Below are positions 62,672 through 64,000 of a DNA stretch of 64,000 nt, in pieces; position 1 is the first letter of the stretch; each line of letters begins with the position of its first letter. The position numbers were made by a program, and so were the translations under genes. The stretch spans positions 203,256 through 267,255 of the forward strand of contig NZ_OCPC01000006.1 of the NCBI RefSeq assembly GCF_900220985.1, written 5' to 3'. The notes beneath the pieces were generated by a model that worked only from the letters and a program-made list of their open reading frames with translations, was not told the origin of the DNA and did no database searches. Source of the DNA: Parahoeflea halophila (GTDB taxonomy: Bacteria > Pseudomonadota > Alphaproteobacteria > Rhizobiales > Rhizobiaceae).

Positions 62672-63421
62672 TCAGCCGATCATGCCCAGAGCAGGAAAGG
62701 TCTCGAGCAGCCAGTACGCCATGGTTGCCATGCCGCCGGTCAGAAACAGGATCCCGGTCAGCACCAGAAGTGCTCCGGTGACCTTCTCGATCGTACCGAG
62801 ATACCTGCGGAATTTCTGCGAAAACCGCATGAACCGCTCGGAGAACAACCCAGCAATCCAGAATGGCACCGCAAGCCCGAGCGAGTATGCTGCCAGCAAC
62901 AGCGCCCCGTCGCCCACGGTTTCCTTTCCGGCCGCAACCCCAAGCACCGCGCCGAGTACCGGACCGATGCAGGGCGTCCAGCCAAAGGCAAACGCCAGCC
63001 CCATCACATAGGCGCCCGACAGCGTGGCCGGCTTGCCGCCACCGGCAAACCGCGCTTCTCGGGCCAGCAGCCCAATACGAAAAACGCCGAGAAAGTGCAG
63101 GCCCATCAGGATGATGACGATGCCGCCGAGCTTGGCCAAAAGATCCATGTGCTGACGCAGCGCCACCCCGATGCTCGACGCCCCCGCGCCAAGCGCCACG
63201 AACACGGTGGCAAAGCCCAGGGTAAAGAAGACTGAGGCAAAAAACACCGCCCGCCGCGTGTCCCTGGCCCGGGCCTCGGCTCCGCTGCCGCGGAAATCCT
63301 CGACCGATACCCCGGCCATGTAACACAGATAAGGCGGCACCAGCGGCAGCACGCAGGGCGACAGGAAGGACAAGGCTCCCGCGAAAATGACGGTGAGCAG
63401 CGAAATGTCGGCAATCATCAC
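62672..63421 (-). CDS. ccdA: cytochrome c biogenesis protein CcdA
   Basis: A 249-residue membrane protein with six helices that passes reducing equivalents from cytoplasmic thioredoxin to the periplasm for cytochrome c maturation. The two redox cysteines are seen in LSPCVLPLVPPYLCYMAG and FGWTPCIGPVLGAVLG. No thioredoxin-like partner gene lies next to it in the window. Confidence 0.95.
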   Translation of the reverse strand: MMIADISLLTVIFAGALSFLSPCVLPLVPPYLCYMAGVSVEDFRGSGAEARARDTRRAVFFASVFFTLGFATVFVALGAGASSIGVALRQHMDLLAKLGGIVIILMGLHFLGVFRIGLLAREARFAGGGKPATLSGAYVMGLAFAFGWTPCIGPVLGAVLGVAAGKETVGDGALLLAAYSLGLAVPFWIAGLFSERFMRFSQKFRRYLGTIEKVTGALLVLTGILFLTGGMATMAYWLLETFPALGMIG

Positions 63422-63753: not shown

Positions 63754-63829
63754 GAGAGCGTAGCTCAGCTGGTAGAGCAACTGACTTTTAATCAGTAGGT
63801 CCAGGGTTCGAACCCCTGCGCTCTCACCA
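63754..63829 (+). tRNA. tRNA-Lys (anticodon UUU)
   Basis: A 76-base tRNA with encoded CCA. Acceptor arms GAGAGCG and CGCTCTC pair fully. The D-loop AGCTGGTAGAGC, the anticodon stem CTGAC/ATCAG region with loop CTTTTAA (anticodon TTT) and the T-loop GGTTCGAACCC are standard. A 6-base A-run follows the CCA. Confidence 0.98.
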
Positions 63830-63893
63830 AAAAACATAAGAAAATCAAGAATTTACCATCCGTCCCATGTGGCATGCCGTCGGGCGAGCGGCG

Positions 63894-63978
63894 CAATGCA
63901 CGAACAATGCACGGAACATTTTAGGCGGTGCACTCGTTGGTGCGCCGGCCGCAATCGCAATGCACGCGCCAATGCACG
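63894..63978 (+). repeat. four direct copies of CAATGCACG downstream of tRNA-Lys
   Basis: Exact copies of the 9-mer CAATGCACG lie at 63894-63902, 63905-63913, 63958-63966 and 63970-63978. They form two pairs, with centre spacings of 11 and 12 bp, the pairs 64 bp apart. A 9-bp word occurring four times in 85 bases is far above chance. Paired short repeats beside a tRNA gene resemble arm-type binding sites of a tyrosine integrase at an attachment site. The integrase gene, if any, would lie beyond the window. Confidence 0.7.
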
Positions 63979-64000
63979 TAAAAAACCCGGCACTATGGCC

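Follow-up and report, generated by a model that had tools for sequence, protein, structure and literature searches.

The window, a 64-kb stretch of DNA (G000:C13:203256-267255, where G000 is the genome itself in a 15-contig assembly), closes shortly after an intact tRNA-Lys (TTT) gene, which ARAGORN placed on the plus strand at 63754..63829; the next 31 kb of the contig were analyzed as well. Four exact copies of CAATGCACG follow the tRNA within 85 bp, all on the plus strand and arranged as two direct pairs. The sites of the first pair (63894..63902 and 63905..63913) lie at +65 and +76 from the tRNA end, with starts 11 bp apart, and those of the second (63958..63966 and 63970..63978) at +129 and +141, with starts 12 bp apart. 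This is the arrangement that the original prediction had described, and both the tRNA search and our motif search reproduce it. On both strands of the window CAATGCACG occurs six times, against 1.19 expected from shuffling, and none of 100 shuffles reached six; four of the six matches fall inside the 85 bp. When the whole assembly was searched for CAATGCACG-NN-CAATGCACG with up to three mismatches, seven matches were found, the perfect site described here and six with three mismatches; a reversed-pattern control gave one. No other site in the assembly matches the first pair with two mismatches or fewer. The window shuffles, the assembly-wide pair search and the comparison with relatives described below together rule out a chance origin of the repeats.

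The 3′ half of the tRNA is present twice. A 45-bp core that begins at tRNA position 32, where the anticodon loop (CTTTTAA) starts, and runs to the CCA (63785..63829, plus strand) recurs as a perfect copy at G000:C13:288200-288244, which corresponds to 84945-84989 in window numbering and lies outside it. The two copies are 100% identical and 21,160 bp apart, the neighboring bases diverge beyond the core, and ARAGORN found a whole tRNA at the left copy alone. We therefore designate the two copies attL and attR and place between them an element of 21,160 bp, one core counted. Its left end lies inside the window (63830..64000), which stops 171 bp into the element, and its remainder occupies G000:C13:267256-288199. 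Two expectations raised from the sequence of the window are thus borne out: a second copy of the tRNA-Lys 3′ end does lie to the right, and what begins at the tRNA and runs rightward is a phage-like element of 21 kb. In IMG/VR the element is recorded as a viral contig of 20,740 bp (IMGVR_UViG_2740891889_000003).

The tRNA and its left flank were found in all 18 genomes of the genus, this one included, and the left 2.67 kb of the element had no match in the corresponding loci of the 17 genus-mates. The nearest of these, G399, has a left flank 84% identical to ours and lacks the element at tRNA-Lys; its tRNA end is followed by 13 bp and then by homology to sequence 1.2 kb beyond our attR (83% over 1.49 kb). 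The unoccupied site is thus not base-exact, as synteny restarts 1.2 kb past attR rather than at attR, and the two genomes differ by this additional 1.2 kb besides the element. The right flank was matched in one of the 17 genus-mates' loci, which extend some 1.5 kb or less past the tRNA. The approximately 1.2 kb between attR and the resumed synteny (L007:5991-7203) holds a 248-aa frame that by eye has the appearance of a DUF421/YetF protein.

A tyrosine integrase gene, encoding 406 aa from the aligned ATG, is located on the minus strand just inside the attR end (C13:286806-288026). The original prediction had anticipated an integrase within several kb of the repeats; the gene exists, but at the opposite end of the element, with 20.9 kb between its start and the end of the tRNA. 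The protein carries PF00589 (6.9e-23), the arm-binding domain PF13356 (Arm-DNA-bind_3, 9.8e-18) and PF22022 (7.5e-8), and six residues that we take to be catalytic (R250, K277, H343, R346, H369 and Y381) are shared without exception by the 13 integrases aligned, this one and those of 12 relatives. A search against the genome contigs gave one distant match (24% identity, Rhizobium skierniewicense). Directly upstream of the integrase ATG, the leader contains CAATGCACG as an inverted pair, CCGTGCATTG...CAATGCACGG. There are accordingly four copies of the motif at attL and two at attR, and a scan of 23 kb starting at window position 63000 showed none elsewhere. A TTGACA about 21 nt before the inverted pair was read by eye as the int promoter; a consensus promoter scan did not list it, returning another weak site at no more than chance level.

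To place these repeats in a wider context, we compared them with the ends of related elements. The integrase type was found in 15 of 394 genomes of the bacterial family, ours included (E 1e-60), and a search of the order with a sister integrase (from G052) added one of 387 genomes at 1e-90; among 80 viral-contig integrases, the analysis took in our own copy alone. Twelve of the 15 other genomes, those in which an intact tRNA-Lys was located, entered the comparison, in which the 200 bp after the tRNA were set against the sequence upstream of the integrase; G265, G353 and G372 were excluded because other tRNA fragments lie at their integrases. In five of the 12 (G264 and four others) the pairing of tRNA with integrase is an assignment of ours, since the two ends are on different contigs. 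For each element we determined the best direct pair of 8-mers downstream of the tRNA, testing offsets of 10-12 and starts of 30-119 nt, and compared it with 300 single-base shuffles, which do not preserve dinucleotides. In all 13 elements the best pair had 11-bp spacing and started 60-67 nt downstream of the tRNA. It was equaled by at most one of the 300 shuffles in eight elements; taken singly, the pairs of G050 (127/300), G607 (128/300), G025 (24/300), G368 (22/300) and G301 (19/300) are weak.

The motif itself varies with integrase lineage, taking the forms GGGTTCC, GGGTACC, ATTCTGTACG and CAATGCACG; in G050, GGGTACC/GGTACCC stands where others have GGGTTCC/GGAACCC. In nine of the 13 elements, no more than three of 300 shuffles equaled the longest word common to the two ends, that of the tRNA and that of the integrase; the result was weaker in G048 (88/300), G123 (28/300), G122 (16/300) and G193 (16/300); the word of G050 is tRNA-like rather than the arm word. 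Our element shares the 12-nt CAATGCACGGAA between its ends, against a non-cognate maximum of 9, and G264 shares 11 nt against 10. Specificity for the cognate end shows clearly only in our element and slightly in G264, because within the GGGTTCC lineages the word that non-cognate ends have in common frequently equals or exceeds the cognate one in length (in G122, up to 18 non-cognate against 9 cognate). G264 is nearest by integrase (46%) and has ATTCTGTACG at +67 and +78, an 11-bp spacing, after an intact tRNA-Lys, with a similar third copy further in and a ATTCTGTACG palindrome at its integrase leader; ATTCTGTACG thus takes the place of CAATGCACG at both ends. The two elements have TGNACG within the motif in common, as well as the inverted-pair leader. 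The tRNA-side site of G264 was selected from 16 places, two exact (both in the leader palindrome) and 14 with one mismatch, against five for a reversed-pattern control; tRNAs were looked for at 10 of the 14, and tRNA-Lys was present at one.

Based on these results, the CAATGCACG repeats are most likely arm-type sites of the integrase at one end of the element, a reading that draws on sequence comparison. The suggestion of tyrosine-integrase arm sites in the original prediction is thereby strengthened, with the sites still putative, by the common layout and the lineage-specific motifs of the relatives. We also considered that the repeats bind another protein of the element, such as an AlpA-like excisionase, a repressor or a replication initiator. 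A gene for an AlpA/excisionase-like helix-turn-helix (HTH) protein (phrog_66, E 2.9e-4) does lie 0.4-0.7 kb from the repeats, and inverted repeats at a promoter are typical of operators; however, the repeats are present at both ends, the tRNA-side pair stays at much the same distance from the core in the relatives, the motif changes between integrase lineages, and it is the integrase that has an arm-DNA-binding domain. We consider binding by another protein very unlikely. Read as integrase arm sites, the repeats have a layout that is retained while the motif differs between lineages, which would help to decode integrase arm specificity, and the locus offers a complete att system open to testing: a core, two sets of arm sites, an integrase and a candidate directionality factor.

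Two further features of the relatives were observed in passing. Several of them (loci L185, L184, L186 and L188) have a second inverted tRNA-like word, CTACTGA or ACCTACTGA, roughly 40 nt past the 3′ end of tRNA-Lys and ahead of the arm pair; by eye it is absent from our element and from G264. Furthermore, the int leaders of sister integrases (L010, L012, L013, L011, L022, L015, L017, L020, L021 and L177) copy sequence of the target tRNA's anticodon stem and variable loop about 1-40 nt upstream of the ATG. The copy in L010 is ATCAGTAGGTCCA, and such leader copies are inverted relative to the tRNA fragment upstream; L020, which has another tRNA target, carries TCATGGGGTC, resembling its own target. 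Ten of 16 leaders beat 95% of shuffles, the others being ours and those of G264, G265, G025, G052 and G248. Against covariation of leader and target, another tRNA type gives G368, G122 and G248 a score that is one or two higher, and for G372 it gives an equal score. These tRNA-like leaders may be core-type operators, or a conserved ribosome-binding site.

The cargo of the element was analyzed as 21 listed proteins, 20 of them scanned with Pfam, with PHROGs scans alongside. Inward from attR, the integrase is followed by an HTH protein (phrog_6401, 1.4e-4), a primase (phrog_510; DUF7146 and Toprim), a DUF3987/helicase-like protein (phrog_2373), a 257-aa protein with no PHROGs match and two proteins of 204 and 188 aa with no match. 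Next in order are a head-closure-like protein (phrog_82, E 0.0048; its Pfam match to Phage_attach, E 0.0016, is below cut-off), TerS (phrog_57), TerL of the gpA type, a portal of the lambda type, an adaptor whose C-terminal domain is gpW-like (L006:8501-9133, minus strand) and three small proteins. Beyond these lie a 741-aa tape measure (TIGR01760, 7.2e-33; phrog_28, 3e-50), a 430-aa protein (phrog_5990; L006:3654-4946, minus strand), two frames on the other strand of 112 and 209 aa (the latter phrog_33791), the AlpA/excisionase-like HTH near attL, whose phrog_66 assignment is weak and whose Pfam HTH_17 match is below cut-off, and last a 128-aa frame. The gene for the 430-aa protein sits in a stretch of 41% G+C and its product has a weak HslV-peptidase match (E 0.03); a shorter frame near the tRNA in G052 (L207:1136-1993) shows local similarity to it (33% over 63 aa). 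For a reading as a defense island, a PADLOC scan of nine proteins gave two weak matches, a primase stretch (RTasDnaG-like, 7.6e-7) and mad1 for a small HTH protein (0.0079). An ICE or integrative mobilizable element was rejected, as the Pfam scan of 20 of the 21 proteins returned no relaxase or conjugation genes. Neither a capsid, protease, tail tube or baseplate protein nor a lysis gene was recognized among the 21 proteins by these scans.

Could the element be a complete temperate phage in which the genes for capsid and tail have diverged too far for recognition? The structural region does contain proteins of 204, 188, 130, 108 and 88 aa without a convincing family match. Yet no unassigned protein there has the usual size of a major capsid protein, the 257-aa protein without a PHROGs match being followed in size by others of at most 204 aa, 21 kb is small for a tailed phage, and the matches of TerL (805 phage records) and of the tape measure (43 records) were all below 60% identity. 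We regard a complete phage as highly improbable.

The relatives bear on the nature of this cargo. Of the relatives at tRNA-Lys with both ends on one contig, those measured have elements of 11.6 kb (G048), 16.8 kb (G123), 10.6 kb (G052), 18.0 kb (G050), 19.0 kb (G193) and 10.5 kb (G607). Family scans covered selected proteins of five relatives, G123, G050, G048, G193 and G264, and left out G052, G607 and G248. Among the proteins scanned, G123 has TerL, adaptor, capsid and portal; G050 has TerL, neck, adaptor, major tail protein, a capsid-protease fusion and a tape measure; and G048 and G193 each have a capsid-protease fusion and a tape measure. G264 encodes a primase-like protein of 1381 aa, TerS, TerL and a 1061-aa tape measure, and neither capsid nor portal was recognized among its seven proteins scanned. 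Its element appears to be split over contigs (C38:1-20700 and C4:93449-98447), and a frame near its integrase resembles by eye a DNA methyltransferase. In the 394 family genomes the tape measure found five others at 1e-30: G269 (L066) has tape measure, TerS, TerL (43%) and a weak portal match and looks by its reading frames like a fuller prophage, and in the same comparison the other four have the tape measure alone in common with our element. Because the cargo lacks a recognized capsid and the relatives are small, four of them with capsid genes, a phage satellite is suggested rather than a complete prophage.

The principal competing explanation is a cryptic prophage in decay, in which an ancestral phage at tRNA-Lys, once complete, has shed the genes for its capsid, its protease and most of its tail by deletion and is now immobile. 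It would account for a terminase, portal and tape measure that persist where major capsid, protease and tail tube were not recognized. The adaptor is also consistent with it: its first 110 or so residues form an extension that is not covered in the two relatives found at 1e-6 among the 394 family genomes (frames of 95 and 111 aa). Also in line with decay, a helper search in the genome gave no second gpA terminase and no PF03864 capsid to serve the lambda-type portal; it did find two HK97-type capsid loci elsewhere. On the other hand, both att sites are present in full, as is the integrase frame, and G264 likewise combines TerS, TerL and tape measure with no recognized capsid or portal (seven proteins scanned). 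Moreover, capsid genes are retained in four other relatives of comparable size, alongside a tape measure in three, a pattern resembling a stable satellite lifestyle. This gene content of the relatives favors satellites over a one-off decayed prophage, as far as sequence can tell; decay nonetheless has an appreciable, if minority, share of our belief. Of the two HK97-type loci, one (L214; G000:C2:213000-232999) has neighbors that by eye resemble an integrase, a terminase and a 900-aa tape measure, and this cluster is possibly a second small phage-like element, another satellite. The neighborhood of the other (L213; G000:C6:255000-274999) resembles by eye a gene transfer agent cluster.

Taken together, we are highly confident in a model in which the 21,160-bp element integrated at tRNA-Lys, has CAATGCACG as integrase arm-type sites and carries phage-satellite cargo. 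We propose that the element used tRNA-Lys(TTT) as attB and that strand exchange by its own integrase most likely takes place within the 7-nt anticodon loop, a crossover position suggested by the sequence. Integration would have restored the tRNA at attL and left the displaced 3′ half as attR. By comparison with relatives, the putative arm sites comprise the two direct CAATGCACG pairs on the attL side and, on the side of attR, the inverted pair of the integrase leader; once the element is circular, these sites would lie on either side of the core in attP and serve to build the intasome. While the element is integrated, binding of integrase to the leader pair would repress int, by analogy with KplE1. 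The AlpA/excisionase-like HTH protein near attL is a candidate directionality factor that may act with the integrase in excision. The cargo is best read as that of a phage satellite, whose dependence on a helper is suggested by the genes it lacks: it would package itself with its own terminase and portal and borrow the missing virion parts. The element thus points to a lineage of tRNA-Lys satellites in this bacterial family with tape-measure genes beside packaging or capsid genes and no full tail.

A bolder joint reading, which we offer as speculation and think unlikely to hold in full, is that the tRNA-Lys satellites of the family swap virion modules on one conserved chassis of integrase and arm sites, form hybrid particles and use a tRNA-like leader operator. 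If so, some members, ours included, would carry terminase, portal and tape measure with no capsid; the satellite would set packaging and tail length, and the helper would give capsid and tail tube. Integrases of the sister lineages could then use the sequence of their own att target as an operator.

With respect to known systems, the element is ordinary in kind and unusually well resolved. Capsid-forming PICIs (cfPICIs) are described as making their own capsids (PMC11389934). Like them, our element has its own integrase, a weak AlpA-like HTH protein, primase, terminase, portal and adaptor (PMC11389934, the gene list being partly from PMC10448857), and the relatives G123, G050, G048 and G193 carry capsid genes. 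The integrase, AlpA-like regulator and primase are all present, the AlpA assignment being weak; of the complete head module, TerS, TerL, portal and adaptor were found; and where a cfPICI has no tail genes, ours has a tape measure. Because it has a tape measure and no recognized major capsid or protease, unlike the cfPICIs of PMC11389934, we do not class it as one. Putative satellites that encode tape measure and capsid genes and are flanked by att sites have also been described (PMC10448857). Ours similarly encodes a tape measure without most tail genes between att sites, but those satellites lack terminase and alpA, whereas ours has terminase, portal and an AlpA-like gene and no recognized capsid. 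The matches listed from openly accessible literature, judged by titles and the beginnings of abstracts, included no satellite that has a terminase, a portal and a tape measure while lacking a capsid.

The attachment region has closer precedents. In the KplE1 prophage the att region overlaps the intS promoter and int is negatively autoregulated (PMC2951348). Our putative arm sites likewise lie at the integrase promoter region beside a tRNA fragment, which predicts negative autoregulation; unlike those of KplE1, our two sites, as read from the sequence, form a tight inverted repeat at the leader. Mycobacteriophage Boilgate is integrated at tRNA-Lys-TTT with a common core of 43 bp that has five differences (PMC10865867). 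As in such tRNA islands of the lambda/P4 type, our core contains the tRNA-Lys 3′ half, here 45 identical bp. The two also have in common an integrase with an N-terminal arm-binding domain, putative arm sites flanking the core and a functional tRNA at attL, and they differ in the arm motif, in the element itself, in the position of our integrase at the attR end and in the satellite-like cargo that our element carries.
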